A stretch of 22,100 nucleotides of DNA from an uncultured Blautia sp. (GTDB lineage Bacteria; Bacillota; Clostridia; Lachnospirales; Lachnospiraceae): the NCBI GenBank assembly GCA_934408705.1, contig CAKRVL010000037.1:1-22100 (forward strand), given 5' to 3'. The notes beneath the pieces were generated by a model that had not been told where the DNA came from, did not search any database, and was given only the letters and a program-made list of their open reading frames with translations. Positions 2,121-21,838 of this stretch are shown here, in pieces. The translations under genes and the position numbers were made by a program. Within the stretch, counting starts at the first letter, position 1, and each line of letters begins with the position of its first letter.

Positions 2121-2148
2121 ATAATTTTGTAAAAAATCCTATACTTTT
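2121..2148. other. attL core direct repeat
   Basis: Twenty-eight bases starting ATAATTTTG and ending TATACTTTT recur without mismatch at 13028-13055. Inside attL the segment 2129-2150 is a perfect inverted repeat, GTAAAA - 10 nt - TTTTAC, the shape expected of paired core-type recombinase sites around a crossover region. The last two bases of that inverted repeat lie beyond the shared 28 bp and come from the element side, so the perfect palindrome belongs to attP and attL. Confidence 0.85.
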
Positions 2149-2162
2149 ACTTTGCACGTATT

Positions 2163-2218
2163 ATCAAGGCTTATCTGGGTGCATCATTTGCTGTTCTGAA
2201 AACCCGGGAAGCCTTGAT
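2163..2218 (+). terminator. Long hairpin just inside attL
   Basis: ATCAAGGCTT (2163-2172) pairs perfectly with AAGCCTTGAT (2209-2218), and GGGT (2177-2180) can pair with ACCC (2202-2205) inside it. Four T residues (2218-2221) follow. It could end transcription coming from ruvB into the element, or transcription coming from int through attP in the circular form. It could also be a structural part of the attachment region. The large loop makes it an atypical terminator. Confidence 0.4.
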
Positions 2219-2280
2219 TTTGCTAGGGAAATTTATAATTATGGTTTTATCTTTACGCATTATGTTACATCACGTGTCAG

Positions 2281-2333
2281 TGGGGTAAAATCTGTTTTGT
2301 GGGGTAAAAATTGGGGTAAAATGTGGGGTACAG
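2281..2333 (+). repeat. Left arm-type repeats TGGGGTAAAA, four copies
   Basis: TGGGGTAAAA occurs at 2281, 2300 and 2312, with a shortened copy (TGGGGTA) at 2324. The last three are spaced exactly 12 bp. Two more copies in the same orientation, also 12 bp apart, lie beside attR (12963 and 12975). Repeats on both sides of an attachment core are the usual arm-type binding sites for the N-terminal domain of a tyrosine integrase; this role is inferred. Confidence 0.7.
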
Positions 2334-2350
2334 AAAGCCACAAAATAAGT

Positions 2351-2388
2351 AAAGCACTCAACGCCTTAATTGGTATTGGGTGCTTTTT
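2351..2388 (-). terminator. Bidirectional terminator-like hairpin at the end of the repressor gene
   Basis: AAAGCACTCAA (2351-2361) pairs with TTGGGTGCTTT (2376-2386) with one G-T wobble, and runs of T follow on the plus strand. The stop codon of the minus-strand repressor lies in the loop, so the hairpin would end that transcript. Confidence 0.6.
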
Positions 2389-2968
2389 CAATTGTTTTTT
2401 TATAAATGGATTTTATGCAGGAAGATAATCCCTCGCTTGCGGTAAAAAGAGCTAATCGCAAATTTTTTAGGGCTTTTGTTTTTTCACTAGTTGGAAGAGA
2501 TGAATCTTCATATCTATGTCGATAAATGCAGTAATCAGCAATTGGAAGTAAAACATCATGCGAGAACCACATATCCTCTTCTAGTAAATTGTTAATGGCA
2601 TGTGTACAATTACGAGCCCATGAATATTCTTGGCCTTTAAGGGAACCAACCTCATTCCATTGTTTTAAAATTTCAATACTTTTTTCTGAAAGACCTGTTA
2701 TCTGATGAATGTCAGTGGAACTTTTGGTTTTGCAATCATGTTCACATAGTAGATATCCTAATTCACAATTGAAAGGTTCACATAATGTACATAGAACATC
2801 TAAAGGAGGCATTTCTTCACCCTTTTCCCATTTTGAGATAGTTTGCCTTTTGAAACTCCGATAGTTATTTTGTTGAATATATTCAACTAAGGCATCTTGA
2901 CTTTTAAAACCAGCTTTTTTTCGTTCCTCTTTTAGACGATTCCCAATTTTTATTTTATCGTACCTCAT
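2366..2968 (-). CDS. XRE-family transcriptional repressor
   Basis: A 200-residue protein with an N-terminal XRE/Cro-type helix-turn-helix at about residues 8-65 (RLKEERKKAG, then RQTISKWEKGEEMPPLDVL), the DNA-binding fold used by phage immunity repressors. The C-terminal part is not recognised. I start it at the CAT of 2966-2968, because GGGGGA (2981-2986) is a suitable ribosome site 12 bp upstream; the longer open frame would add 23 unlikely residues and overlap the divergent promoter region. It is divergent from the excisionase/replication operon, the classical arrangement of a lysogeny switch, and probably represses it. Confidence 0.85.
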   Translation of the reverse strand: MRYDKIKIGNRLKEERKKAGFKSQDALVEYIQQNNYRSFKRQTISKWEKGEEMPPLDVLCTLCEPFNCELGYLLCEHDCKTKSSTDIHQITGLSEKSIEILKQWNEVGSLKGQEYSWARNCTHAINNLLEEDMWFSHDVLLPIADYCIYRHRYEDSSLPTSEKTKALKNLRLALFTASEGLSSCIKSIYKKTIEKAPNTN

Positions 2969-3090
2969 TTTTAACAAAAATCCCCCAATAAATAAAATGT
3001 GTAAAAAATATGTATCCAGACAATTACAGTTTATCATTGTATTATGAGATTGTAAATAACAAAGATAAATTTTGGTTGGAGGTTTATATT

Positions 3091-3285
3091 ATGAGATCAT
3101 TGATACAAAATACGGAGATTGAACAAAAAACAGGAACATTAGAGCAGGCAGGATTAAGATATGGATTTGGCCGCAATTCTATTCGCAAAATTGCGAATGA
3201 TGCTGGGGCAATCATAAAAATCGGAAAATCAGTTCGTATTAATTTTACTATTCTTGATCAGTATATGGATGAAATCTCAGAGTGA
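3091..3285 (+). CDS. Small excisionase-like DNA-binding protein (DUF6462-like)
   Basis: A 64-residue protein resembling the small helix-turn-helix proteins (DUF6462/excisionase-like) found next to replication genes of Lachnospiraceae elements. The core is a winged-helix-like segment, GLRYGFGRNSIRKIANDAGA, followed by a beta-wing KIGKSVRINF. I use the ATG at 3091 with GGAGG at 3078-3082; the frame is open further upstream but without a ribosome site. A plausible promoter is CAGACA (3017-3022) - 17 bp - TATTAT (3040-3045). It is the first gene of the rightward operon and could act as excisionase or as antagonist of the repressor. Confidence 0.65.
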   Translation: MRSLIQNTEIEQKTGTLEQAGLRYGFGRNSIRKIANDAGAIIKIGKSVRINFTILDQYMDEISE

Positions 3286-3298
3286 TGGAGGTAATTCT

Positions 3299-3616
3299 AT
3301 GAGTGTATATGAAAATCTGCTGCCAGGAAGAGAAAATGCATTGTCTCCGGAGTACCTGGCTGTGAAATGTAATCTATCCAGTGTTCGGCTGCTCCAAAAA
3401 GAGATTGAAAGGGAGCGCAGATCTGGAAAAGTTATCCTATCGAGCACAGTTACGCCAGGAGGTTACTATTTACCAGCAGAGGGAGACATTGCAGAAGTAA
3501 AGCGGTTTATCCGAACACTGGAGAGTCGAGGAAGTAAGACGATTTCTATCTTAGAGAGCGCAAAAGAATTATTAAGAGAATTGGAGGATAAGCAATGTGG
3601 CAAATCCTCAGATTGA
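3299..3616 (+). CDS. Winged-helix-like hypothetical protein of the replication operon
   Basis: A 105-residue protein. Residues about 18-60 (YLAVKCNLSSVRLLQKEIERERRS, then a beta-like GGYYLPA) look like a winged-helix DNA-binding domain followed by a helical tail rich in Leu, Lys and Glu. I choose the ATG at 3299 because GGAGG at 3288-3292 precedes it. Its 3' end overlaps the GTG start of the initiator gene by 20 bp, which suggests translational coupling. The function is unknown; a replication accessory or regulatory role is inferred from position only. Confidence 0.65.
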   Translation: MSVYENLLPGRENALSPEYLAVKCNLSSVRLLQKEIERERRSGKVILSSTVTPGGYYLPAEGDIAEVKRFIRTLESRGSKTISILESAKELLRELEDKQCGKSSD

Positions 3617-4352
3617 AAATGGTTACACAGTTGTAGCCAATGAGATATTAGACCACCTTTATAAACAACCATTGAATGGGACAGAGCTAAAGGTTGTTAT
3701 GTGTATTCTTCGTTATACATTCGGATTTCAGAGAAAATCACATAAGTTATCAGCAACTTTTATAGCTAAATGGGGAAATTGTGATCCAAGAACAGTAAAG
3801 AGAGCATTAAAGAAACTTCAACAGGACAGAGTTATTATTTACATTAATTCTGAACGGAAAGGTGTTACTGCAGAGTTAATGTTTAACAAGGACTATGAGC
3901 AATGGTGTACTGGTGGGCAAAACGTCACTAGTGGCGAAAATGACACTGGTGGGCAAAATGTCACTGGGGTAGTGGGCAAAATGACACCAGAACCGGTGGG
4001 CAAAATGACACACAAGAAAATAAAAAAAGAAAATAAAAATATAAAAACAAAATATTATGATGATTTCTTCGAAAAAGTTTGGAAACCGTATCCGCGGAAG
4101 TTGGGAAAATCGTCAGTGACGCAGAAAGCTAAAAAGGAACTGTACGAAGCAGGGGAAAAAGTTGTTCTTGGAGCTGTTAATTCATACATGGCAGAGATAC
4201 AGGAGAATGGAACAGCAGAAAAGTATATTTTGCATGGATCTACGTTCTTTAATGGTAGATGGCGTGATTATATCAAACAACCAGAACCAAGTGTTGAGGT
4301 TACGGCAGAAGAACCAGCAGAGAAACCTATTGATTTATGGAGTGAGGAATAA
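3597..4352 (+). CDS. Phage replication initiator, lambda-O-like, with helicase-loader-type C terminus
   Basis: The 251-residue protein starts at GTG 3597 with GGAGG at 3583-3587. Residues 1-100 match the N-terminal replication protein O pattern (GYTVVANEILDHL, NGTELKVVMCILRYTFGFQRKSH, SATFIAKWGNCDPRTVKRALKKL), a winged helix that binds origin iterons. Residues about 105-140 are low-complexity GGQNVT and VGKMT repeats because the DNA beneath them is an iteron array. After a lysine/asparagine-rich linker, the C terminus (YYDDFFEKVWKPYPRKLGK, then FFNGRWRDYI) resembles the C-terminal segments of Gram-positive phage replication proteins. Its stop overlaps the primase-helicase start in TAATG, so initiator and helicase are made together. 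Confidence 0.85.
   Translation: MANPQIENGYTVVANEILDHLYKQPLNGTELKVVMCILRYTFGFQRKSHKLSATFIAKWGNCDPRTVKRALKKLQQDRVIIYINSERKGVTAELMFNKDYEQWCTGGQNVTSGENDTGGQNVTGVVGKMTPEPVGKMTHKKIKKENKNIKTKYYDDFFEKVWKPYPRKLGKSSVTQKAKKELYEAGEKVVLGAVNSYMAEIQENGTAEKYILHGSTFFNGRWRDYIKQPEPSVEVTAEEPAEKPIDLWSEE
3913..4070 (+). repeat. Iteron array and A-rich tract: probable replication origin inside the initiator gene
   Basis: Five 16-bp direct repeats with consensus GTGGGCAAAATGWCAC begin at 3913, 3931, 3949, 3972 and 3996. The last two are identical, the others differ by one to three bases, and the spacings are 18, 18, 23 and 24 bp. Directly after the array, 4012-4070 is almost all A with a few T, a likely unwinding element. 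Iterons followed by an A-rich tract within the O gene is the architecture of the lambda origin. The role as origin is inferred from this match and from the protein identity. Confidence 0.8.
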
Positions 4353-6187
4353 TGGAATATTACGAATTTAAGAAAGAAGATGCCTATGAATTCGCCAGAA
4401 CTTCCGGAATCCAAGCTAAACAGAGGGGGGATGAACTTCAGTTTCTGTCTTGTCCGTATTGTAGAGGTGGTAAAAATGGAGATAAAGGGACGTTTTCTAT
4501 TAGCTTGGATACTGGACAATTTAAATGTCTCAGGTCCTCCTGCTCTGTTTCGGGAAATATGATTACACTTGCCAGAGATTTTGACTATTTTAGCTTGGGA
4601 AAAGATATAGATGCATATTACCGGACCGGAAAACAGAAAAGATTCCGGCAATTTAAGAAGATGGAGCCTATAAAGCCTAAACCCGAAGCTGTTACATATC
4701 TGGAAAGTAGAAAAATCACTGTTGCTACGGCAGAGGAATATCGGATCACGGTTCAGAGTAACCATAAGAATATTCTAGTATTCCCTTTCTTGGATGAAAA
4801 AGGAACTATGCCGTTTATAAAATACAGGAAAATAGACTTTAACCCGGCAGTGGACAAGGGAAAAGAGTGGTGTGAAGCAAACTGCAAACCCATTTTGTTT
4901 GGAATGTACCAGTGTAATCTGAACAATAAAACCCTGATTCTCACAGAAGGGCAGATTGACAGCTTATCAGTTGCGGAATCTGGAATTGAAAATGCAGTTT
5001 CTGTTCCGTTTGGGAAAAATGGTTTTACTTGGATTCCCTATTGTTGGGAATGGATGCAAAACTTTGATACGTTAATCGTGTTCGGGGATTGTGAAAATGG
5101 GACAATAACTCTTTTGGATGAAATGCGAAAGCGATTCAGGGGAACTGTTAAAGTGGTTCAGCAGCAGGATTATAAAGGATGTAAAGATGCAAATGAGCTG
5201 TTATGCAAATACGGAAAAGACGCAGTTCGTAGGGCTGTTGAGCAGGCGAAAACAGTATTAATTGATCGAGTGATAGAAATTGCTGATATTAAGGCAGTGG
5301 ACTTATTTTCACTTCCGAAGATATCAACGGGAATTAAGGGAATTGATAAGGTTCTCTCAGGCGGAATTTATTTAGGTCAAACAGTAATCTTAACAGGCAA
5401 GAGAGGAGATGGTAAGAGTACACTTGGCTCCCAGATATTAGCGAATGCACTGGACAATGGAAAATCTATTTTTGCGTATTCTGGAGAGTTGCCGGATTAT
5501 TTCTTTAAACGGTGGCTGGATTTTCAGATTGCAGGCCAGCACAATGTGATTGATCGTGCAGGAGAAGCTGGATCAGTAAATTATTTTATTCCAGATAGTA
5601 AGGTGTACGAAATCTCTGAATGGTATCGAGGACGAGCTTATTTATTTGATAATCAATCAACGGAAGATAATGAGCTGGATTATTTACTTGTTACTATTGA
5701 GAAGTCAATACAGCAATATGGAATTCAGCTGGTATTACTGGATAATTTGATGACGGCACTTGATATCGGATTAGATATGGATTTATACCGCGCTCAAAGT
5801 AAATTTGTTGATAAGCTGGTTAAGATTTCCAAAAACTATAATGTTGCAGTGATTTTAATTGTTCATCCTAGAAAAAACAGTCTTGGAGCCGATGATAATG
5901 ACGTTGTTAGTGGAAGTTCCGATATCACAAATAAAGTTGATGTTGTTATGACATACAAGCGAGATAAGAACTTACCTGATACGGAGCGCATATTAACAGT
6001 TTCGAAGAATCGTTTGACAGGAAGATTGGCTTTAGGAGAAAAAGCAATAAAGTTATATTTTGACGAGGCATCCAAGAGAATAAGTGATAATCGTGATGAT
6101 TTCAGAAAACCTTACGAATGGGAAGCAGATCGAAATGGATTTATGCCAGTTAGTGCTTTGGAACAGATGGAAATACCATTTGATTGA
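4352..6187 (+). CDS. Twinkle-like primase-helicase
   Basis: This 611-residue protein combines DNA primase and replicative helicase modules, like the T7 gp4/Twinkle group. The N terminus has a zinc-ribbon pattern with C34, C37, C59 and C64 (SCPYC, then FKCLRSSC). A Toprim-like segment follows near residues 190-270 (LILTEGQIDSLSVAESG, then IVFGDCENG). The C-terminal RecA-like motor has Walker A GKRGDGKST near residues 349-357 and Walker B LVLLDNLM near 470, with a later VHPRKN segment. It probably unwinds and primes at the iteron origin located in the gene just upstream. It overlaps that gene by one base. Confidence 0.9.
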   Translation: MEYYEFKKEDAYEFARTSGIQAKQRGDELQFLSCPYCRGGKNGDKGTFSISLDTGQFKCLRSSCSVSGNMITLARDFDYFSLGKDIDAYYRTGKQKRFRQFKKMEPIKPKPEAVTYLESRKITVATAEEYRITVQSNHKNILVFPFLDEKGTMPFIKYRKIDFNPAVDKGKEWCEANCKPILFGMYQCNLNNKTLILTEGQIDSLSVAESGIENAVSVPFGKNGFTWIPYCWEWMQNFDTLIVFGDCENGTITLLDEMRKRFRGTVKVVQQQDYKGCKDANELLCKYGKDAVRRAVEQAKTVLIDRVIEIADIKAVDLFSLPKISTGIKGIDKVLSGGIYLGQTVILTGKRGDGKSTLGSQILANALDNGKSIFAYSGELPDYFFKRWLDFQIAGQHNVIDRAGEAGSVNYFIPDSKVYEISEWYRGRAYLFDNQSTEDNELDYLLVTIEKSIQQYGIQLVLLDNLMTALDIGLDMDLYRAQSKFVDKLVKISKNYNVAVILIVHPRKNSLGADDNDVVSGSSDITNKVDVVMTYKRDKNLPDTERILTVSKNRLTGRLALGEKAIKLYFDEASKRISDNRDDFRKPYEWEADRNGFMPVSALEQMEIPFD

Positions 6188-6236
6188 TGAAACGCAAATT
6201 TTATAGGCGGTGATTCGCCAGAAAGGAAAATGATAT

Positions 6237-6473
6237 ATGAAAATTTTAATGCAAAATTTATGTGAGGTTTTTGATTTTAATTCCAAAAGAATACGAATAT
6301 TGCTTTCGGTTTATGATGGTGAGCCATCAATGGCAGCAGTTGTATATATGGCATCAAACTCTTTCAAAATTATGGGGAACTATAAAGATGAAGCACGAGC
6401 AAAGGAAGTTACAAATGATATGCTTCATGAGTGTACAGCGGGAAAAAAGGTGTATATCATGCCGGAGGCGTAA
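6237..6473 (+). CDS. Hypothetical protein, 78 aa
   Basis: The ATG at 6237 follows an AAAGGAAAA ribosome site. I do not recognise the protein; it looks like a small soluble alpha/beta protein (IRILLSVYDGEP, MAAVVYMASNSFKIM, KKVYIMPEA). A second frame (6262-6498) overlaps it, but this frame has the better ribosome site and ends just before the next gene, whose Shine-Dalgarno sequence lies in its last codons. Such tightly packed small ORFs are typical of the early region of Lachnospiraceae phages. Confidence 0.6.
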   Translation: MKILMQNLCEVFDFNSKRIRILLSVYDGEPSMAAVVYMASNSFKIMGNYKDEARAKEVTNDMLHECTAGKKVYIMPEA

Positions 6474-6476
6474 CCT

Positions 6477-6725
6477 GTGGACAACAATGAAGAATTAAAA
6501 CGGGTCTATGATATTTTCACGGACTGCTGGAGGCTCTACAGGAAACTGTATCCTCCAGGCAAGCCCAAGGATGATGATTACTGGCAGCAGGCAGTAAAAG
6601 AAATGGAGCAGTTGGAAAATAAACATTGTCATTCCGTATTGTGTCAGGATCTTTTGTGTGCGGTGGCAAAAGACCTGGAAAAGAAAGCAAAATTAACCTG
6701 TCCTGCTGCCGAAAAGAATGTGTAA
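6477..6725 (+). CDS. Hypothetical protein, 82 aa (GTG start)
   Basis: The GTG at 6477 is preceded by GGAGG at 6463-6467, nine bases away, and the gene begins three bases after the previous stop. The protein is hydrophilic and mainly helical (RVYDIFTDCWRLYRKLYPP, AVKEMEQLENKH) and has four cysteines without a clear metal motif. The function is unknown. Confidence 0.6.
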   Translation: MDNNEELKRVYDIFTDCWRLYRKLYPPGKPKDDDYWQQAVKEMEQLENKHCHSVLCQDLLCAVAKDLEKKAKLTCPAAEKNV

Positions 6726-6770
6726 TGTTGTTCTCTGAACTTATATTAGCATAGCGAGGAGGATAACACA

Positions 6771-7100
6771 ATGAGAACCAGAGAAATGAAATTGAAACAT
6801 TATGGAATTACTTTTGAAGAAAATAAGTGGGCGCTTGAGCAGGCTAAGCTAAAGGAAAATGAAAAATTAGTCCGCCTGGCAGCAGAACAGAGCAACCCGA
6901 ATATAGCGGACGGAATTATTCGTTCTCTAGTAACGGGGGAAAGCTACGATAAAATGAATAAAGTTAAGGATATGTACATCAACCGTGATGATTTTTATGC
7001 ATACCGGAGACAGGCTACTTATATTTTCTGGATATTGCTGAATGGGCGAGAATTGGACAGAGAGAATATGGGTAGATCTGATAATCAGTATAGCTCTTGA
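6771..7100 (+). CDS. Hypothetical protein, 109 aa
   Basis: A clear GAGGAGGA ribosome site precedes the ATG at 6771. The protein is helical and charged, starting MRTREMKLKHYGITFEENK and later reading YDKMNKVKDMYINRDDFYAYRRQATYIFWILLNGRE. I recognise no domain with confidence; similar small ORFs occur in prophages of gut Clostridia. Its last codons already contain the first TATAG motif of the repeat region that follows, and it is the last rightward gene before about 1 kb of non-coding DNA. Confidence 0.65.
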   Translation: MRTREMKLKHYGITFEENKWALEQAKLKENEKLVRLAAEQSNPNIADGIIRSLVTGESYDKMNKVKDMYINRDDFYAYRRQATYIFWILLNGRELDRENMGRSDNQYSS

Positions 7101-7604
7101 GATGTTGAAAATTGTTGAGGTAGTTGGCTATATAGCGATAATGTCGGAAGAACCATACAAAACCCTACATGATTTCTATATAGCTGAAAACCTTAACAAA
7201 TATTATCATTTCCAGTACAGAGAACCTAACAAAACCTAACATTTTTGCATGTATAGGTAAAACCTAAAAAATTCTTATATTTTGTGGATATAAGGGCGTG
7301 AGAACTTACGGAAACCTACGATTTCTGCATATATATCCGAAACATTAGTATTTTTTAGTACTATGGCTGCCTAGTACAACCTAGGATTTTGGTTCGTATA
7401 GTTGCCTTTTTGAAAACCTCAGAAAACCTCATATTATTCGAGTATACGGCGCCAGAGCTTAACAAAAGTTAACATTTTGAAGCATATAGGCAGAACTTAA
7501 GAAAACTTAAGGTCTTTGGGAATATAGTACAGAACTTGAAAAAGCTTGAGATCCTTTGCGTATAGCTGAAATGGTGGAAAAGGGTGGAACTTTGGACCAT
7601 ATAG
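7089..7604. repeat. Non-coding doublet array, left half: 10-bp word pairs capped by TATAG
   Basis: About 13 successive units each contain a short word written twice, exactly 10 bp apart, usually followed by a T-rich stretch and TATAG or a variant. Word starts (first/second) are 7103/7113 TGTTGA, 7152/7162 ACCATACA/ACCCTACA, 7193/7203 TTAACA/TTATCA, 7223/7233 AACCTAACA, 7261/7271 (degenerate), 7303/7313 AACTTACG/AACCTACG, 7345/7355 TTAGTA, 7370/7380 CCTAG, 7412/7422 GAAAACCTCA, 7459/7469 TTAACA, 7494/7504 AACTTAAG, 7535/7545 CTTGA and 7573/7583 GGTGGAA. TATAG-like caps start at 7089, 7131, 7179, 7216, 7252, 7289, 7397, 7443, 7485, 7523, 7561 and 7600. Stops occur in every frame, so it is not coding. 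The function is unknown. Confidence 0.8.
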
Positions 7605-8148
7605 TTTGTTGATACGATTACGCGCACAAGGAAATTTAATGACACGATACGCGCGCGAAAAGAATTCGTGGACACGATGTACACAGGAGTGTATTTGGTG
7701 GTTTTTGGAGCCTTAAAAGGTCAAAGAAATTCTGAATGAATTCCGAGCAAACTTCGAGAAATTAGCAAAAATATCTTTGAACAAAGAGCGAACAGAGAGA
7801 AATCGAACAACAGACGAACAAAACAGAAAGGCATACTATTATTAGTAAAAGGTTATTTACGGTCCAGGTGTACAAGCGATTGTTTACTGCTTAATTGAAC
7901 AGGCGAGGACCAGGCGAAAAACGTATTAGAGTGGCTCCACCATTTCAAGGAGTTTAAGGTAGTGAAGCCGCTGGAAAGCCGCACAAAGCCGTGAGAAATG
8001 GAATAAAGCGGCGAGGAAGCGGTGAGAACCGGGAGTGCTTGAACTGTCGATTAACAGTCGATATATTTGATCGAAGCAGTGAGGAAGCAGTGAAAAATTG
8101 ATGGAAAAAGATGGTGTTTTAGTATATAGCTAAAGAAAGGCGTATAGC
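7605..8148. repeat. Non-coding doublet array, right half: 30-bp triplicate and mostly 11-bp word pairs
   Basis: The octamer GAYACGAT recurs at 7611, 7641 and 7671, exactly 30 bp apart. Beyond it the doublets continue with spacing mostly 11: TTTGG 7694/7704, AATTCYGA-like 7728/7739/7750, GAACA 7779/7790 and 7805/7816, CAGGCGA 7900/7911, AAGCCG 7965/7976/7986, AAGCGG 8006/8017, GTCGAT 8046/8057, GAAGCAGTGA 8073/8084 and GATGG 8100/8110. This half is richer in G and C than the left half. Two TATAGC motifs (8125 and 8143) lie just before the rha start, and a weak promoter TTGATG (8098-8103) - 16 bp - TAGTAT (8120-8125) may overlap the last unit. No ORF or tRNA is present. Confidence 0.75.
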
Positions 8149-8820
8149 ATGAATGAACTTGTTTATTTGAAAAATGATGAAGCGGTATGTGATAGTCTTC
8201 AGGTGGCGGAGAAATTTGGAAAGAGACACGATAAGTTGATTGCCGAAATAAGAAGGATGTATGGAGATTTAATAGGGAAAAGGGGTGCCCGAAATGGTGG
8301 AGCCAAATTTTTCTTTGAATCAACTTATGAAAACCGTGGAAAGCGATATCCTATGTTTTTAATGACGAGAGATGGTTTTTCTCTTCTGGTAATGGGATTT
8401 ACCGGGAAGAATGCCCTTGAATGGAAATTACAGTATATCCGGGCATTTAACCAGATGGAAAGCTTTATCCGTGAGAAATCAACTCAGATGTGGATTGAAA
8501 CCAGGAAAGCAGGGAAGTTCACTAGAAGGGCGGAGGTTGACACAATCCAGAAACTTGTGGAATATGCAAAAGAGCAAGGCAGCAGTCATGCAGAAAAGCT
8601 CTATATGACATATTCCAAATTGGCTAATAAGATGGCCGGAATTACTAAGCGGGATGAGGCTACTGTAATGCAGCTGAATACTCTGTCATTAGTGGAAAAT
8701 ATTATTCTGCATGAGGTTGATCTTGGAATCTTGAAAGGAAAGCCTTACAAGGAGATATACAAAGATTGTCGGAAGAGACTTGAAGCGGTAAAAGATCTGG
8801 CTTATTTGGAAGCGGTATAA
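8149..8820 (+). CDS. Rha-family phage regulatory protein
   Basis: The 223-residue protein opens with the pRha pattern LVYLKNDEAVCDSLQVAEKFGKRHDKLIAEIRR (read in shorter pieces), then FFESTYENRGKRYPMFLMTRDGF and a segment ending GKNALEWKLQYIRAFNQME. That order (S-x-x-VAE-F-K-H at the start, T-DGF-LL-MGFTG in the middle) defines the Rha/antirepressor-like family of phage regulators, whose members affect the lytic-lysogenic balance. The C-terminal 110 residues are helical and not assigned. AAGAAAGG at 8133-8140 is a good ribosome site. It follows the doublet array directly, so the array forms its upstream region. Confidence 0.9.
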   Translation: MNELVYLKNDEAVCDSLQVAEKFGKRHDKLIAEIRRMYGDLIGKRGARNGGAKFFFESTYENRGKRYPMFLMTRDGFSLLVMGFTGKNALEWKLQYIRAFNQMESFIREKSTQMWIETRKAGKFTRRAEVDTIQKLVEYAKEQGSSHAEKLYMTYSKLANKMAGITKRDEATVMQLNTLSLVENIILHEVDLGILKGKPYKEIYKDCRKRLEAVKDLAYLEAV

Positions 8821-8853
8821 AAGAAAAATGAATAGGTGGCTCGGAATGGGAAA

Positions 8854-8882
8854 TTGACAAATCCGGGAAGATGGCATATAAT
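8854..8882 (+). promoter_or_regulatory. Consensus sigma-A promoter of the antitoxin RNA
   Basis: TTGACA (8854-8859) and TATAAT (8877-8882) are both perfect consensus boxes with a 17-bp spacer, the strongest promoter in the window. No plus-strand ORF follows for several hundred bases, but a terminator does (8950-8988), so the product should be a short untranslated RNA. Confidence 0.85.
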
Positions 8883-8888
8883 ATACTT

Positions 8889-8993
8889 ATCAAGACAGCC
8901 AGTAAGGGAGGTTGGGCTCCCCGTCCTGGCAAGATATATGTTTAAGACGTAGCCGCCTATTCTTTACCAGAGAGCAGGGCGGCTATTTCTTAT
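8889..8993 (+). ncRNA. Candidate RatA-type antisense antitoxin RNA
   Basis: The predicted start is about 7 bp after the TATAAT. The RNA would contain a 5' hairpin (GCCAG with CTGGC enclosing GGGAG with CTCCC, 8900-8930) and end in the hairpin TAGCCGCC (8950-8957)/GGCGGCTA (8978-8985) followed by TTTCTT. It converges on the minus-strand toxin gene, whose stop codon is inside the terminator stem, so it would pair with the 3' part of the toxin mRNA. This is the layout of the Bacillus txpA/ratA type I system. The ends are estimates. Confidence 0.65.
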
Positions 8994-9066
8994 GTGTGTA
9001 TGTAAGGATAGATACAATTAAGCTGGCTGTCGTCAGAATGACCATAAATATCTCATAATCGCTCAT
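8983..9066 (-). CDS. Type I toxin peptide, holin-like toxin family (TxpA/BsrG-like)
   Basis: A 27-residue peptide with an N-terminal MSDYE motif, one hydrophobic segment (IFMVILTTASLIVSIL) and a basic tail (THKK). This is the pattern of the putative holin-like toxin family (Hol_Tox), short membrane peptides that act as toxins of type I systems. I choose the ATG at 9064-9066: AGGAGG lies about 8 nt upstream. An in-frame ATG at 9070-9072 is too close to that site. A long leader (9067 to at least 9170) without a gene precedes it, also typical. Expression is presumably repressed by the convergent RNA from 8889. Confidence 0.75.
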   Translation of the reverse strand: MSDYEIFMVILTTASLIVSILTYTHKK

Positions 9067-9188
9067 AAGCATCCCCTCCTGTCAAGGCTCAGGATCAGGG
9101 AACCACAGCCGCTCTACTGGCTGCCTGGATAAATATACTATTCAGTTTTCTTTTATTTTCCCTTTAATTTGATATACAGACTGCTGCC

Positions 9189-9374
9189 TTAGTCCTTCAC
9201 GATGGAAAGACGGTAGGTAACGTGATGATCTTCGGATGGTGGATTCTGAAAGACTTCCTCGTCAATCTCCAGATCTGTAAAGTCATCTGTGTAGATTATT
9301 CCGTCAAGCAATTCCACACGGATAAAATCAGGCAGATTCATAATATCATCACAGGTATATAAACGTTTTGCCAT
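9189..9374 (-). CDS. Small Uma2-N-terminus-like protein, 61 aa
   Basis: Starts at the CAT of 9372-9374 behind AAAGGATG. The first 30 residues (RLYTCDDIMNLPDFIRVELLDGIIY) follow the N-terminal pattern of Uma2-family nucleases (YT-x-DDI-x-LP-x-x-x-R-x-ELIDG-x-IY). The PD-(D/E)xK catalytic part that should follow is absent: the rest is a short acidic tail. It could be a stand-alone regulator, a fragment, or an unrelated small protein with the same motif. It lies third in the minus-strand RHH operon. Confidence 0.55.
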   Translation of the reverse strand: MAKRLYTCDDIMNLPDFIRVELLDGIIYTDDFTDLEIDEEVFQNPPSEDHHVTYRLSIVKD

Positions 9375-9418
9375 GGTAGCACATCCTTTCTTGATAGAAT
9401 GATAATAAAATTGCTTTG

Positions 9419-9667
9419 TTATACAAAGAATTCCCATTTCCTTGTTATGAAATGCCATATAAGCAGCCATAGCCAGATATATGCGCCAGGGTAAGCACAG
9501 AGCAATAATACAGCTGCTATATTGCATTTTGTAACACAAAATACTATGAAGAGCAATCCAAGCCATAGACACAAAGGGATTTTGAAGAATATGAGCCGGA
9601 ATGTGCCACAAATTCTCTGGGCTTTGATTTTCTCTTGTGGGTGGTATTTTCTGGAAAGTTTACTCAT
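9419..9667 (-). CDS. Small two-helix membrane protein
   Basis: An 82-residue protein with a basic N terminus (MSKLSRKYHPQEKIKAQR) and two strongly hydrophobic segments, about residues 27-46 and 49-74 (AAVLLLCAYPGAYIWLWLLI), then an aromatic tail. Its ATG overlaps the 3' end of the RHH gene by 8 bp, suggesting coupled translation; the ribosome site is weak. No family is recognised. A plus-strand frame (9522-9902) overlaps it but lacks a ribosome site and runs antisense to the convincing RHH gene, so I prefer this one. Confidence 0.5.
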   Translation of the reverse strand: MSKLSRKYHPQEKIKAQRICGTFRLIFFKIPLCLWLGLLFIVFCVTKCNIAAVLLLCAYPGAYIWLWLLIWHFITRKWEFFV

Positions 9668-9863
9668 TAGATTCTCGTTCCATTCGTTGATCTACTGCCT
9701 TCTTGATATAGCCGTTTACGGATTCTCCAGCGGCTTCTGCTGCTTGCATGATAATTTCTTTTTGACCTTTAGGAAAAGTTACATTAATGCGATCATAATT
9801 GTTTTTTACATATTTATTTACAGCTTTTTGTTGAGCCTTACTTACTTTGTTTTCCTCTGGCAT
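9660..9863 (-). CDS. Arc-like ribbon-helix-helix DNA-binding protein
   Basis: A 67-residue protein with a Lys/Gln-rich N terminus, then the ribbon-helix-helix pattern DRINVTFPKGQKEIIMQAAEAAGESVNGYIKKAVD (read in pieces), where the beta strand RINVTF contacts DNA. I start at the CAT of 9861-9863; a longer frame would begin near the predicted transcription start. A promoter TTTACA (9956-9961) - 17 bp - TATACT (9933-9938) lies upstream on the minus strand. A direct repeat covers its -35 box, so the protein probably represses its own operon. Confidence 0.8.
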   Translation of the reverse strand: MPEENKVSKAQQKAVNKYVKNNYDRINVTFPKGQKEIIMQAAEAAGESVNGYIKKAVDQRMERESNE

Positions 9864-9948
9864 ATAGACACCTGCTTTCTTAGTAGTAATAGGGGAGGGT
9901 AAATATAGATACACCTTTTCCACCATACAGGAAGTATACCACAAAAAT

Positions 9949-10043
9949 CTATTGATGTAAATATATAAAATACATAAATATATTGGTGCAAATATAGTAA
10001 AAGTGTCAATGGACTATTGGTGTAAATAGATATATAATATAAT
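9949..10043. promoter_or_regulatory. Triple direct-repeat operator between divergent promoters
   Basis: The 14-mer TATTGRTGYAAATA occurs at 9950-9963, 9981-9994 and 10015-10028, all in one orientation, 31 and 34 bp apart (about three helical turns). Copy 1 covers the -35 of the minus-strand RHH promoter. Copy 3 sits in the spacer of a plausible plus-strand promoter, TGGACT (10010-10015) - 17 bp - TATAAT (10033-10038). RHH proteins typically bind such tandem direct repeats, so these are the likely operators of the adjacent RHH protein. Confidence 0.65.
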
Positions 10044-10183
10044 CAGTTCAAGGGAACAGAACAACAGCGAAGGGTGAAAACGAAGTAATCGTAAGATGTA
10101 CCGGAGACACCAACATAATACCGGGCAAGGGTAAGCAAAGGAACAAAAGTTGCCGAGATTGGTTTAAGACCTGCCGGAGCTGA
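10043..10183 (+). other. Open frame without a start codon
   Basis: This frame runs 46 codons from just after a stop (10040-10042) to the TGA at 10181-10183 with no ATG, GTG or TTG. The translation has a protein-like look (GENEVIVRCTGDTNIIPGKG, later RNKSCRDWFKTCRS). It may be the remnant of a small gene that lost its start. The evidence is weak: no family is recognised. Confidence 0.25.
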
Positions 10184-10217
10184 TCGGGATTCCCAGAAGA
10201 GAAAGGAGCTGAAAGAA

Positions 10218-10409
10218 ATAGCGAAATTAACACCAATAAAAGCAATTCGGCAGAAATGCCTTGATTGTTGCTGCGGACAGTTGGCAGAAGTAAGAATGTG
10301 TACTTGCACAACATGCGCGTTATATGGCTACAGAATGGGGCATAGACCTAAAGACGAACAATTTACCATTGAAACAGATACAGGGGAAAAATCATCACGT
10401 AGCCTATAG
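10218..10409 (+). pseudogene. Cysteine-rich phage-type small protein with an ATA in place of its start codon
   Basis: From 10218 to the TAG at 10407-10409 the frame encodes 63 residues with the pattern AIRQKCLDCCCGQLAEVRMC, TTCALYGYRMGHRP. This pattern (AIR-x-KC-x-DC, EVR-x-C, C-x-LY-x-YR-x-G-x-xP) is a widespread small phage/prophage protein, probably zinc-binding. A strong site AAAGGAG (10202-10208) is correctly placed, but the codon where ATG is expected reads ATA, and no other start exists upstream before an in-frame stop. Either the start was lost recently by a G-to-A change, or a non-standard start is used, or there is a sequence error. No other gene is convincing in 10044-10437. Confidence 0.6.
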
Positions 10410-10437
10410 TTTTTCGTGACAGAAAGGGGATTATGAT

Positions 10438-10761
10438 ATGAAGTACAACCTTAGCAAGATCATGCTGAAAGCATGGAAAGTTTACCGAAGTGGTAAGCAG
10501 ATTAGTTTTGGTGAAGCTCTTCATAGAGCATGGTTATCTGCAAAAGCAGAGGAAATCAATGCAAAGAGAATTGAGACAGCGAAACAGACAGCAGGAATCA
10601 CTGAAGAGATAAATACCTTTGCTAAATGGAAAGAACTGGGATATAAAGTGGTTCATGGTTCCAAAGCATTATTTGGATGTTCTCTTATCTGGGGAAGTAG
10701 AGGAGATGGGGCAACATACAAAGCCAGTTTCTTCGGAAGGTCTCAGGTAGAAGCAATTTAG
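10438..10761 (+). CDS. Phage/ICE-type hypothetical protein, 107 aa
   Basis: AAAGGGG lies upstream of the ATG at 10438. The N terminus (KYNLSKIMLKAWKVYR, then SFGEALHRAWLSAKAE) is a motif seen at the start of many small proteins of Firmicute phages and conjugative elements. The C-terminal half (KWKELGYKVVHGSKALFG, then YKASFFGRSQVEAI) looks like a compact beta-rich domain recalling part of ArdC-type antirestriction N-terminal domains. That comparison is tentative, and the function is unknown. Confidence 0.65.
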   Translation: MKYNLSKIMLKAWKVYRSGKQISFGEALHRAWLSAKAEEINAKRIETAKQTAGITEEINTFAKWKELGYKVVHGSKALFGCSLIWGSRGDGATYKASFFGRSQVEAI

Positions 10762-10834
10762 TAAAAAAGCCCTTACCAGAGCGGCAACTCTGATAAAGGC
10801 AAAGTAACCCGTCATTCAGCAAAATTGAGGGGCT
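10762..10834 (-). ncRNA. Candidate minus-strand small RNA, about 73 nt
   Basis: Read on the minus strand, an extended -10 TGTTATAAT (10841-10849) with a partial -35 TTGCGC (10865-10870, 18-bp spacer) leads to a hairpin, GCCTTTATCAGAG (10800-10788) with CTCTGGTAAGGGC (10781-10769), followed by six T residues (10768-10763). That is a complete promoter-to-terminator unit with no ORF. On the plus strand the same hairpin has no T tract. GAGGGG (10827-10832) and CCCCTC (10858-10863) form a further dyad around the promoter. Confidence 0.45.
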
Positions 10835-10888
10835 GTGCGTATTATAACATACTCATTCCCCTCAGCGCAACGGATAAAGGAGAAGTAA

Positions 10889-10990
10889 ATGCTATCGGTA
10901 ATGGACGTTCTTACAATTTTTATCAGCGGTTTTGTGGCCGCCAAGGTGTGCGATTATATTAAAGAATTGGGTAAGGAGAATGAGATATGA
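10889..10990 (+). CDS. Small single-span membrane peptide, 33 aa
   Basis: AAAGGAG (10877-10883) precedes the ATG at 10889, and the stop overlaps the next start as ATGA (10987-10990), so it is translated with that gene. The peptide has one hydrophobic segment (VLTIFISGFVAAKVCDYI) and a charged C terminus (KELGKENEI). It resembles the tiny membrane peptides found in Firmicute prophages; the function is unknown. Confidence 0.6.
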   Translation: MLSVMDVLTIFISGFVAAKVCDYIKELGKENEI

Positions 10991-11331
10991 GCAATAAGGA
11001 AGTATCAAAGACACAGAAAGAAACAGAAGTGATGCAGACAACAGGCGTTCCGGCGCAGGAGACGGAAGGTGTAAGTGTTGTTCTTGCAACAGAGATTATT
11101 GCGGACCTTAAGAAACAGCTGAAGGAAGCAAAGGAAGAAGCTGATAATTTGGAAAAAGATTGGGAGTTTTGTTCACAGCAGAGATTAATTTTCGCAATGC
11201 AAACCGACATTATTAACTTTACACTGAAAATCTTTGATTATAAATGTCTCAGCATGGCCTTAAGCTATGTAAAGGCAGTATACAATCAGCAACCGCCGGA
11301 AGAAGAGGAAGAACAGGAGGGCGCTGAATAA
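10987..11331 (+). CDS. Hypothetical coiled-coil protein, 114 aa
   Basis: The ATG at 10987 overlaps the upstream peptide gene, and GTAAGGAG (10971-10978) is the ribosome site. Residues about 33-60 are a charged coiled-coil segment (IIADLKKQLKEAKEEADNLE), flanked by a Thr/Gln/Glu-rich N terminus and an acidic tail (PPEEEEEQEGAE). No family is recognised. Its stop overlaps the next ATG (TAATG at 11329-11333). Confidence 0.6.
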   Translation: MSNKEVSKTQKETEVMQTTGVPAQETEGVSVVLATEIIADLKKQLKEAKEEADNLEKDWEFCSQQRLIFAMQTDIINFTLKIFDYKCLSMALSYVKAVYNQQPPEEEEEQEGAE

Positions 11332-11627
11332 TGGAAAAATGTACATTAACTCAGGTTCCCTGTAGAGACGCAATCATGGAAGTGGTTCAGAACAACAAAA
11401 ACAGAAGATCATTACAGCACACCTATGAGCTGGCAGAACTCTTTCGGAACGCTTGTTCCAGTAATGAAGCATTTATGGAACTGCCGGAGGAAGAACAGGA
11501 GCGTTTCTTGCTGATTACAGATGCTTTAATGATGAATGATCTGGAAGACCTCAAGAGGGTACATAACCTTGCAAATTATCTGATGATAAAGCGGATTAAG
11601 GATAATGTGAAAGCGGTGGAGGCGTAG
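11331..11627 (+). CDS. Hypothetical helical protein, 98 aa
   Basis: It overlaps the upstream stop by one base, and GGAGG at 11316-11320 is the ribosome site. The protein is all-helical in appearance (HTYELAELFRNACSSNEAFM, PEEEQERFLLITDALMM, DLKRVHNLANYLMIKRI) and acidic. No known domain is visible. The packed arrangement suggests one transcript with 10889-11727. Confidence 0.6.
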   Translation: MEKCTLTQVPCRDAIMEVVQNNKNRRSLQHTYELAELFRNACSSNEAFMELPEEEQERFLLITDALMMNDLEDLKRVHNLANYLMIKRIKDNVKAVEA

Positions 11628-11628
11628 C

Positions 11629-11727
11629 ATGGACTACAAAGAAGAAACTATTAAAATGATTCAAAAATGCAACAATCTTCACTGGCTAAAAGTAATTCAT
11701 GCTTATGTATTAAGATTGTTAGGATGA
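11629..11727 (+). CDS. Small hypothetical peptide, 32 aa
   Basis: GGTGGAGG (11615-11622) precedes the ATG at 11629, the start lies beside the previous stop, and the frame ends at TGA 11725-11727. It begins MDYKEETIKMIQKCNN and ends AYVLRLLG. Short proteins starting with this KEE-I-KM-I-x-K pattern are frequent just upstream of integrases in Lachnospiraceae elements; they may be DNA-binding helical peptides, but no role is known. Confidence 0.5.
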   Translation: MDYKEETIKMIQKCNNLHWLKVIHAYVLRLLG

Positions 11728-11733
11728 TCAGAG

Positions 11734-11753
11734 GGGCGGCGTAACGGCTGCCC
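11734..11753 (+). promoter_or_regulatory. Hairpin upstream of the integrase
   Basis: GGGCGGC (11734-11740) pairs with GCTGCCC (11747-11753) with one G-T wobble around a 6-nt loop. Only TTT follows, so it may be a weak terminator that lowers read-through from the small-ORF operon into the integrase gene. Confidence 0.4.
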
Positions 11754-11783
11754 TTTGGAGTACAGAAAGGATGGTGACGCATA

Positions 11784-12932
11784 ATGGCAAGAATCCCATC
11801 AGGAATGCGAAAAAAGGAAAACGGCCTATTTGAGAAGCGTTTTACCGTGAATGGAAAACGATATAGTGCCTATGGCCATACCGTAAAAGAATGTGCAGAG
11901 AATGAAACAGAACTGCGTGAGACAATAAAGGCGGGCCTGTATAACGAAAATAAAAACCTAACCCTGGACACTTATTTTGACGAATGGGAAAGGTCCAGAG
12001 TTGGAGTGGTGAAGAATAGCAGCATTAAAGAAATCCGGTCAAGATATGACAATCATATCAAACCGGTTCTGGGAAAGACAAAAGTGCAGAAAATAGAGAA
12101 GCGTGCAGTGGTAAAGCTTCAACAGGAATTGTCCAGGAAGCTTTGCGCTTCAACAGTAAATGGGATTCTGGTTGTGCTGAAATCCGTGCTGAATGAAGCT
12201 GTCAGAGATGAGATCATTATCAAGAATCCTGCTGCCGGTATAAAGCCACTTCGAACAGACGACAGGCCGGATGCAAGTGAGACCATTCACCGGGCATTAA
12301 CCAGGGAAGAGCAGCAGACATTTCTGCAGGGTGCAAGGAATGAATGGTTGTATGAGTTCTTTTGCTTTTCCCTTTGTACCGGTATGAGAATTAATGAGAT
12401 CAATGCTTTGAAGTGGGGAGATATAGATTACATAAACAACGTGATCCATGTCACCAAGACAGTTTCCCGGAAGAAAGGCGGAGGAATCGAGGAGACAACT
12501 CCAAAGTCCGGGACCAGCAAACGTGATATCCCTATGAACGATACAATAAAAAAGATCCTGCAAATGCAAAAAGATAAGATTGCGATTTTCTACGGGGACA
12601 TTTTCGTGAGAAAGCTGAGTAATAACATCTTCCTGGGGAGCAACGGATCCAAGGCGATTGCATCCCATACAGTGAGTTATTCTATAGACAATGTTCTGGC
12701 TCAGCTCCGGCAGCAGGGAACGGAGATTGAGAGATTTACTCATCATGCTTTTCGGGATACATTCGCAACACGGTACATAGAAGAGGGCGGAAACATGAAA
12801 ACCCTGCAGATGATCCTTGGACACAAATCCCTGGCTATGACAGCAGATCTGTATGCACACGTTCTTCCAAGTACGAAGCAACAGGAAATGGAACAGATAG
12901 AGGGGGCATTTCATGAGGTGGCAGTTTTATAA
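11784..12932 (+). CDS. int: Tyrosine recombinase/integrase of the element
   Basis: The 382-residue protein catalyses integration at the 28-bp core and, with an excisionase, excision. Domains are an N-terminal arm-binding region (residues 1-55, RFTVNGKRYSAYGHTVKE), a SAM-like core-binding domain (about 60-165) and the catalytic domain. Catalytic residues visible are R202 (CTGMRINE), H321 and R324 (HHAFRDT), H347 (LGHKSL) and the nucleophile Y357 (LYAHV). AAAGGATG (11766-11773) is its ribosome site. The gene reads toward attR and ends 95 bp from it, and arm-type repeats and a terminator fill the gap. Confidence 0.95.
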   Translation: MARIPSGMRKKENGLFEKRFTVNGKRYSAYGHTVKECAENETELRETIKAGLYNENKNLTLDTYFDEWERSRVGVVKNSSIKEIRSRYDNHIKPVLGKTKVQKIEKRAVVKLQQELSRKLCASTVNGILVVLKSVLNEAVRDEIIIKNPAAGIKPLRTDDRPDASETIHRALTREEQQTFLQGARNEWLYEFFCFSLCTGMRINEINALKWGDIDYINNVIHVTKTVSRKKGGGIEETTPKSGTSKRDIPMNDTIKKILQMQKDKIAIFYGDIFVRKLSNNIFLGSNGSKAIASHTVSYSIDNVLAQLRQQGTEIERFTHHAFRDTFATRYIEEGGNMKTLQMILGHKSLAMTADLYAHVLPSTKQQEMEQIEGAFHEVAVL

Positions 12933-12962
12933 CTGCTGCCTTTTTCCATAAAATAAGCGGAT

Positions 12963-12983
12963 TGGGGTAAAAAGTGGGGTAAA
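12963..12983 (+). repeat. Right arm-type repeats TGGGGTAAA, two copies
   Basis: Copies at 12963 and 12975 are 12 bp apart, the same word and phasing as the four copies beside attL (2281-2333). They probably bind the integrase N-terminal domain. Confidence 0.7.
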
Positions 12984-12991
12984 TGCTAAAC

Positions 12992-13026
12992 AGTGCCTTG
13001 TGAAACCCAGTAAAACAGGCACTTTT
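12992..13026 (+). terminator. Integrase terminator abutting attR
   Basis: AGTGCCT (12992-12998) pairs with AGGCACT (13017-13023), extended inward by TGT/ACA with a bulge, and followed by TTT. It ends one base before the att core. Confidence 0.6.
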
Positions 13027-13027
13027 C

Positions 13028-13055
13028 ATAATTTTGTAAAAAATCCTATACTTTT
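13028..13055. other. attR core direct repeat
   Basis: Identical over 28 bp to 2121-2148. To its right the chromosome resumes with the zapA leader (13056-13192), which has a TATAAT at 13070-13075 but no good -35 at the normal distance, so part of the zapA promoter could lie in the att region. Confidence 0.85.
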
Positions 13056-13192: not shown

Positions 13193-13600
13193 ATGGCGGT
13201 CAAGAATACAGCACAGGTGATCATCGGGGGCAAGATCATTACCCTTGGAGGATATGAATCAGAGGAATATTTCCAGCAGGTAGCATCATATATGAATAAG
13301 AAGATAGGAGAGCTGGAGACTGTGCCGGGATACGGCAGACAGCCTATGGAGACCAAGCATATGCTTCTCAGCCTGAATATTACAGATGACTATTTCAAGG
13401 CGAAGAAGCAGGTTGAGACATACGAGCTTGATCTGCAGCAGAAGGATCAGGAGATGTATGATCTGAAACATGAACTGATCTCACTTCGTATGCAGATTGA
13501 AGAAGCACAGAAGAATGAGCAGGAAGCTCTGGATGAGAAGAATCTTCTGGAAGGCAAGGTTAAGGAACTGGAAAAAGAATTGGATGAAATGCTGAAATAA
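13193..13600 (+). CDS. zapA: Cell division protein ZapA
   Basis: ZapA crosslinks FtsZ filaments in the division ring. The 135-residue protein starts at ATG 13193 with AGGAGG at 13178-13183; the frame is open for 11 codons more, without a ribosome site. The N-terminal globular domain shows NTAQVIIGGKIITLGGYESE, then EEYFQQVASYMNKKI, typical of Firmicute ZapA. From about residue 75 a long coiled coil with heptad-like Leu, Glu and Lys follows (KVKELEKELDEMLK), longer than in the roughly 85-100-residue Bacillus protein. A terminator follows at once, so it is transcribed apart from the downstream genes. Confidence 0.9.
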   Translation: MAVKNTAQVIIGGKIITLGGYESEEYFQQVASYMNKKIGELETVPGYGRQPMETKHMLLSLNITDDYFKAKKQVETYELDLQQKDQEMYDLKHELISLRMQIEEAQKNEQEALDEKNLLEGKVKELEKELDEMLK

Positions 13601-21728: not shown

Positions 21729-21813
21729 TCACAGAGAAAAAAATATCCACAGAGAAAAAAATATCCACAGACAAAAAAATATCCACAGACAAAAAATATC
21801 CACAGACAAAAAA
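21729..21813. repeat. Tandem 18-bp repeat with DnaA-box-like 9-mers
   Basis: Four copies of ATATCCACA (starts 21743, 21761, 21779, 21796) lie in a tandem repeat of period 18, 18 and 17 bp, separated by A-rich stretches. The 9-mer differs at one position from the DnaA box TTATCCACA. The array lies directly downstream of the rpmB terminator. It may be a DnaA-binding cluster or just a simple expanding repeat. Confidence 0.75.
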
Positions 21814-21816
21814 ATA

Positions 21817-21838
21817 GCCCCCACAAAAATGTGAGGGC
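21817..21838 (-). terminator. Terminator of rpmB
   Basis: On the minus strand GCCCTCACA and TGTGGGGGC form a 9-bp stem with one wobble, followed by TATTTTTTT. Confidence 0.8.

Follow-up and report, generated by a model that had tools for sequence, protein, structure and literature searches.

The systems closest to the locus described here are phage satellites and the packaging sites of their helpers. According to the parts of two sources available to us, EcCICFT073 and SaPIbov4 carry two cos sites and StCI-301 carries two putative cos sites (PMC6092414, PMC13376191). The available portion of a further source describes small terminases (TerS) as rings with adjacent HTH motifs about one helical turn apart, places the pac site of SPP1/SF6 across the start of terS, and calls the choice of DNA by small terminases poorly defined (PMC4737164). 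Here we analyse a window, meaning the whole stretch of 22,100 nucleotides at the start of contig CAKRVL010000037.1 from an uncultured Blautia sp., which holds an array of about 1 kb made of paired words. Judging by its likeness to phage genes, we regard the array as a probable library of terminase-recognition (pac/cos-type) sites, carried by a phage satellite in which no terminase was detected.

Results

The array lies in an integrated satellite-like element of 10.9 kb (2121..13055). A direct repeat of 28 nt marks its two ends (2121-2148 and 13028-13055) and forms the putative attL/attR. The element encodes a CI-like HTH repressor on the minus strand (2366..3037; HTH_19, HTH_3) and, on the plus strand, a DUF6462 protein (3088..3285; Pfam) whose position suggests an excisionase-like role, an O-like replication protein (3597..4352), a DnaB/KaiC-like ATPase as replication helicase (4352..6187), a small ORF preceding the array (6771..7100; PHROG 11237, labelled unknown function), rha (8149..8820; Phage_pRha) and a tyrosine integrase (11784..12932). 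A Pfam scan of 16 ORFs of the element, some of which had no match at all, found no terminase, capsid or tail genes, and in particular no TerS of its own. Features expected of a satellite are present, namely the integrase, the att repeats, and phage-like replication and repressor genes, and by this content the element looks like a phage satellite. The repressor is divergent from the replication genes, and the integrase stands at the far right end, co-directional with them. In PICIs the gene order is integrase and repressor followed by divergent replication genes, so that the element differs from classical PICIs in the position of its integrase.

Several other features were seen in the window. 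An 18-bp tandem repeat of 3.3 copies lies inside the O-like replication gene (3909-3967) and perhaps represents origin iterons, while direct repeats of TGGGGTAAAA inside both att ends (2281-2325 and about 12960-12985) are perhaps integrase arm sites. Two minus-strand ORFs, 9660-9944 (ribbon-helix-helix-like, PF07878, below Pfam's cut-off) and 9189-9611, may form a toxin-antitoxin-like pair. Outside the element, positions 21730-21829 hold another 18-bp tandem repeat, CACAGACAAAAAAATATC.

The original prediction described, upstream of rha, more than 20 doublets in which a word is repeated 10 bp away in the left half and 11 bp away in the right half, the word itself changing from unit to unit. 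Since the upstream ORF ends at 7100, the array proper spans about 7101-8118; two short ORFs overlap it (7042-7239 on the plus strand and 7469-7684 on the minus strand). As the prediction had anticipated, the autocorrelation of 7101-8148, computed for lags 2-60, peaked at lag 10 (z 2.6) and lag 11 (z 2.5), and no word is common to all units, which rules out iterons of one initiator or an operator array of a single protein. We scored doublets at lag 10 or 11 with +1 for a match and –2 for a mismatch, against 300 dinucleotide shuffles. At a score of at least 5, the loose cut, there were 22 doublets (shuffle mean 2.5, maximum 8), in agreement with the predicted number and at a threshold where chance gives 2-3; at least 6 was reached by 16 (mean 0.77, maximum 5), and at least 7, the strict cut, by 12 (mean 0.19, maximum 2), so that the array also passed the shuffling comparison proposed for it. 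The remaining lags from 6 to 19 gave 0 or 1 doublet at the loose cut, with the exception of lag 18, which gave 3. When the window was divided into 41 overlapping 1-kb tiles, the three that lie over the array had 5, 8 and 4 exact 7-mer doublets at lag 10/11, and the others had 0-1.

The array falls into two blocks on the plus strand. The left block (7101..7607), read as fragments of Terminase_2-type terS sites, has 10-bp doublets at 7103, 7151, 7223, 7303, 7345, 7370, 7412, 7459, 7494, 7535 and 7569, to which unit-like stretches at 7189 and 7261 were added by eye; many of its units recur at about 38 nt and terminate in (A)TATAG. The right block (7728..8118), read as fragments of PHROG 2412-type sites, has 11-bp doublets at 7728, 7779, 7804, 7900, 7965, 8006, 8042 and 8073, together with 10-bp doublets at 7975 and 8100. 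The predicted spacing thus holds, being 10 bp in the left half and mostly 11 bp in the right half, where a third 10-bp doublet starts at 7694. Many doublets are imperfect copies. Between the blocks, the stretch 7608..7700 (plus strand) contains GATACGATTACGCGC / GACACGATACGCGCG-like words, has a counterpart in loci L089 and L100, and could possibly hold sites of a third terminase type.

Array units resemble a defined site in phage terS genes. When the array was searched by blastn against 50,697 phage records, 12 records matched at E<=1: eleven are terS genes (8 by reading the sequence, 3 by annotation) and the twelfth is the satellite Javan435. In the 8 terS records that were read, the match begins 113-117 nt into the gene. 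The eleven records cover three units only and, most of them being related lactobacillus phages, are not eleven independent events. A dinucleotide-shuffled array used as query gave one match, which was unrelated. All three units are on the plus strand. The first (7215..7243) matches the terS site of the Lactobacillus phages PLE3, P7.1, R24.2, R26.9, R9.1 and ADMH18Phi4, and weakly that of Bacillus phage Pascal (nt 116). The second (7411..7436) matches the terS site of Lactococcus phage TP712 and, more weakly and at nt 120, that of Streptococcus phage Javan570. The third (7293..7335) shares 93% identity across 43 nt with an ORF of the gut phage MT840013, a human faecal phage contig; this is a terS-terL ORF with Terminase_2 and Terminase_3 domains, and the match lies in its terS part. 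In that ORF the doublet encodes ENLRKPTI and TATAG falls in the AYIA codons, which accounts for the TATAG of the array units. We had considered a promoter array, as TATAG follows many units at a –10-like distance, and dropped it on finding that this segment consists of terS codons in MT840013.

For a broader comparison, array 30-mers were scored against 170 terS segments (not de-duplicated), with controls taken from elsewhere in the window. Scores of at least 22/30 were reached by 59 of 340 array 30-mers and by 4 of 600 controls, and all 59 matched at or beside the doublet site, at positions 103-135 in Terminase_2-type and 22-53 in PHROG 2412-type segments. We then took 24 units, consisting of the 22 loose-cut doublets and the two picked by eye (7189 and 7261). 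The best terS match fell at the doublet site in 16 of them, as against 5.5% of controls, and 7 units scored at least 22. Two variants of this matching were weaker: in one, 9 of 22 units exceeded all 60 shuffles, and in the other p<0.05 was reached by 10 of 24 units but also by 4 of 24 controls. Correspondence to a site in phage terS, which is what a pac/cos-type unit should display, was therefore found for 16 of 24 units, and the eight others (7345, 7370, 7535, 7569, 7694, 7900, 8042 and 8100) had no convincing partner among the 170 segments. The words of two of these, 7900 and 8042, recur in L091 and L100. A 7103-type word was present at the homologous place of TerS in 3 of 19 new loci and a 7569-type word in TerS in 0 of 18 loci, while the pattern of unit 7259 matched L089 only. 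Separate blastn searches with quarters of the array at E<=10 gave mostly matches other than terS; a terminase small subunit annotation was carried by 5 among the best 40 of 109 records in the first search, by 2 of 30 in the second, by none of 18 in the third (8 of which are streptococcal satellites) and by none of 17, some without annotation, in the fourth. Overall, about half to two thirds of the units have a counterpart among terS sites.

The doublet is a property of the phage genes themselves. Of 328 relatives in IMG/VR, the best 80 loci gave 65 distinct terS segments of the Terminase_2 type. A 10-bp doublet sits about 112-130 nt into these genes, and because 10 is not a multiple of 3 its two copies are read in different frames. 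At lag 10, at least 8 of 11 positions matched in 60 of the 65 segments and at least 9 in 42, the lowest value being 5, in a sample for which one of the two search patterns, [IV]G[AR]ENL[RT]K, overlaps the doublet site. The segments contain 25 different words, for example AAAACCTGACA, AAAACCTAATA, GAAAACCTCAGA, AAAACCTGTTA and AAAACTTGTCA. The mean lag-10 match was 9.2 of 11. Synonymous shuffling lowered it to 6.1, and shuffling of codons within the same residue and column lowered it to 8.2; none of 1000 shuffles of the latter kind reached 9.2, and a subset of 24 sequences sharing less than 70% identity gave the same result. In 5 of 40 non-redundant sequences the residue after the lysine is leucine instead of proline; every one of these has AACTT in its first word, and 10 further AACTT-bearing sequences retain proline.

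A second gene family carries the 11-bp doublet. Exact copies of GAAGCAGTGAGGAAGCAGTG, a word of the right half, were found in four viral contigs: in non-coding arrays of L089 and L091, inside an ORF of L090 that has terminase-large-subunit domains and an N-terminal part matching PHROG 2412, and inside a PHROG 2412 ORF of L092 that adjoins an ORF resembling terL by eye. PHROG 2412 is annotated as 'unknown function'; its fusion with or nearness to terL suggests that it is a TerS. The pattern GAACNNNGAGCGAACNNNGAGAAA gave 66 matches in L093-L156, of which 42 lie in the N-terminal part of PHROG 2412 family members and 24 are orphan. In this type an 11-bp doublet sits near the gene start. The best 80 of 108, found with a pattern that overlaps the second word, supplied 61 distinct members. 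In 54 of these, at least 7 of 9 positions matched at lag 11; the lowest value was 4, and 36 different words were present. The mean of 7.8 of 9 compares with 6.8 under the residue-and-column codon-shuffle null and was reached by 0 of 1000 shuffles. In both families, therefore, terS words differ between phages, and the two copies stay matched beyond the demands of residue and codon use. The change from 10 to 11 bp along the array follows the change from Terminase_2-type to PHROG 2412-type terS.

Related loci carry comparable arrays. L089/L159 have a homologous array, with many units shared in a different order, that ends at a rha-like gene, and portions of the right block recur in L091 and L100; no match to the left block of the window was found in L100. 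The ORF preceding the array is 32% identical over 90 aa to the ORF that precedes a TerS/TerL-type ORF in the phage contig L090. The L100 copy of this ORF is identical to that of L159, and the gene that follows it in L100 is TerS-like (PHROG 2538, E 2.8e-4). As the array follows an ORF that precedes terS-terL in L090 and is succeeded by a TerS-like gene in L100, we place the array in the terS slot. This gene of L100 (4688-5107), like one in L001 (9209-9628), encodes an HTH protein that weakly resembles a terminase small subunit family, and it sits in the slot that the left block takes in the window and L159. The stretch after rha (8845-9141) is 92% identical to L159, and its part 8961-9141 is 97% identical to L100, values that exceed those of the surrounding genes.

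Around the GAACNNNGAGCGAACNNNGAGAAA matches, orphan-site loci (n=23) contained further lag-10/11 doublets at 0.80 per kb as against 0.20 at other lags, while loci with the site in terS (n=42) had 0.24 as against 0.28. TerL was detected in 31 of the 42 terS loci and in 0 of the 23 orphan-site loci, a difference that counts for little because the same queries missed TerL even beside terS: none of the 19 loci from the 7103-type scan, 3 of which have terS, gave a TerL. Two streptococcal cases also carry an array. One is L125, a relative of S. suis satellites, which has units on both strands; its doublets fall between the integrase and a repressor-like gene. The other is L150, which did not differ from the S. 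pneumoniae satellite Javan742 in the 561 bp used as query. It has a series of different 11-bp doublets in a gene-poor stretch, one of which matches a Terminase_2 gene of phage Javan640; beside them is a copy of Lactococcus phage phiLC3 sequence 13307-13338, which overlaps the annotated cohesive ends 13308-13320. A search of the genome collection with the helicase returned only L002 and L003, in which the cluster scan found no array and a looser tile count gave up to 3 doublets per 500 bp.

Three regions of related elements, L159 8072-12993, L100 16-4260 and L001 3865-8783, encode a tail tape-measure protein (about 1305 aa, PHROG 1535). Upstream of its gene in these loci are Gp15 (PF06854) and another small ORF, and no capsid gene was seen there. 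This raises the question of whether related satellites bring their own tail-length gene.

Discussion

A model that accommodates these observations is that each unit corresponds to 25-40 bp of terS from a different phage, the part bearing the doublet of that phage. In phages, adjacent HTH domains of the TerS ring would bind the doublet, so that its two words would lie on one face of the helix and would have to match each other, and different TerS proteins would read different words. Once a helper enters the cell or is induced, its TerS would locate the matching word of the array and recruit TerL, and packaging of the satellite DNA would begin. With twenty-odd words, more phages could serve as helpers, unrelated ones included. 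TerS binding, packaging and helper breadth are what we infer from the correspondence between units and genes. The prediction had offered three explanations: sites for a protein array of diversified specificity, paired guides, or slippage. Only the first finds support, and it came close, as the units resemble recognition sites for the ring-shaped small terminases of different phages.

The spacing of one turn between words fits the adjacent HTH motifs of the TerS ring, as far as the available part of the SF6 work describes them (PMC4737164). The same part reports that an SF6 domain weakly prefers TTAGGTT, the complement of AACCTAA, which is present in the array. It also reports that DNA binding by SF6 TerS is largely sequence-independent and unrelated to the known box repeats, and this counts against a strict reading of the words (PMC4737164).

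Several other explanations share part of the evidence. The array could be a decoy without any packaging role, titrating the TerS of infecting phages off their own pac site and thereby protecting the host or favouring the satellite. The sequence evidence is equal for this and for packaging, and many words would cover many phages; nevertheless, a few sites per cell would presumably titrate poorly against a replicating phage, and the TerS-like gene in the slot of the sister element L100 points to packaging, which makes a decoy unlikely. In a regulatory role, the array would be bound, ahead of rha, by the TerS of a phage that enters or is induced, and rha or the late part of the element would be switched. 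This would suit the position of the array, which in this element, as in L159 and L100, immediately precedes rha, and TerS-pac binding is reported, in the part of the source available, to lower transcription of the terminase operon (PMC4737164). We regard this role as very unlikely, given that the doublets of L125 and L150 are not before a rha gene. It is more doubtful again that the units are relics, a functionless collection of terS pieces that recombination with phages left behind: no terS partner is recognisable for about a third of the units and many doublets are imperfect, but only 25-40 bp around the doublet were kept, repeatedly and from two TerS families, and other elements have kept homologous arrays. 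The layout alone would allow paired RNA guides, or slippage generating 10-11-bp duplications, but the chance of either is close to negligible, since the words occur with their flanks inside phage terS genes and the window has 0 Rfam matches at gathering thresholds, a result on which a structured RNA family was rejected as well.

Returning to a library of packaging sites, we lean, with less assurance, towards a more general view: that Firmicute satellites keep reshuffled, changing libraries of terminase words, covering unrelated TerS families and both pac and cos, which amount to a readable list of their packaging helpers, and that the same doublets mark the TerS site within terS. If this is true, a simple doublet rule would locate candidate recognition sites in the terS genes of two families, and the possible helpers of a satellite could be read from its sequence. 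Generalist hijacking, with many sites and no terminase found in the satellite, would take its place alongside the known strategies, and many natural pairs of TerS and word would become available for asking how small terminases choose DNA.

Comparison with known systems delimits what may be new. The prediction knew of no described system with this layout. This holds for an array, none being described in the open-access literature searched (subscription papers and preprints lay outside its scope), and does not hold for single sites, as some satellites are known, from the part of the source available, to carry a helper's cos/pac site once or twice (PMC6092414). SPP1/SF6 pac and lambda cosB likewise have repeated sites at or near the start of terS that are bound, or thought to be bound, by TerS; they represent one site per phage genome with one specificity, and the doublet geometry was not found in the portions of these sources at hand (PMC4737164, PMC6092414). 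SaPIs with their own TerS, as the available sections describe them, package by redirecting the helper terminase, as proposed here (PMC6092414, PMC12597102). They bring a TerS protein and one pac site, whereas this element has no detected TerS and its sister L100 has a TerS-like gene. Closest are the PICIs with helper cos/pac, which, according to the accessible parts of their descriptions, are likewise terminase-less satellites that carry helper sites and are packaged by the helper terminase (PMC6092414, PMC13376191). Their one or two sites serve a single helper type; here, about twenty different words, corresponding to two TerS families, stand in one tandem array, and it is this library of about twenty sites, apparently for different terminases, that would be new.
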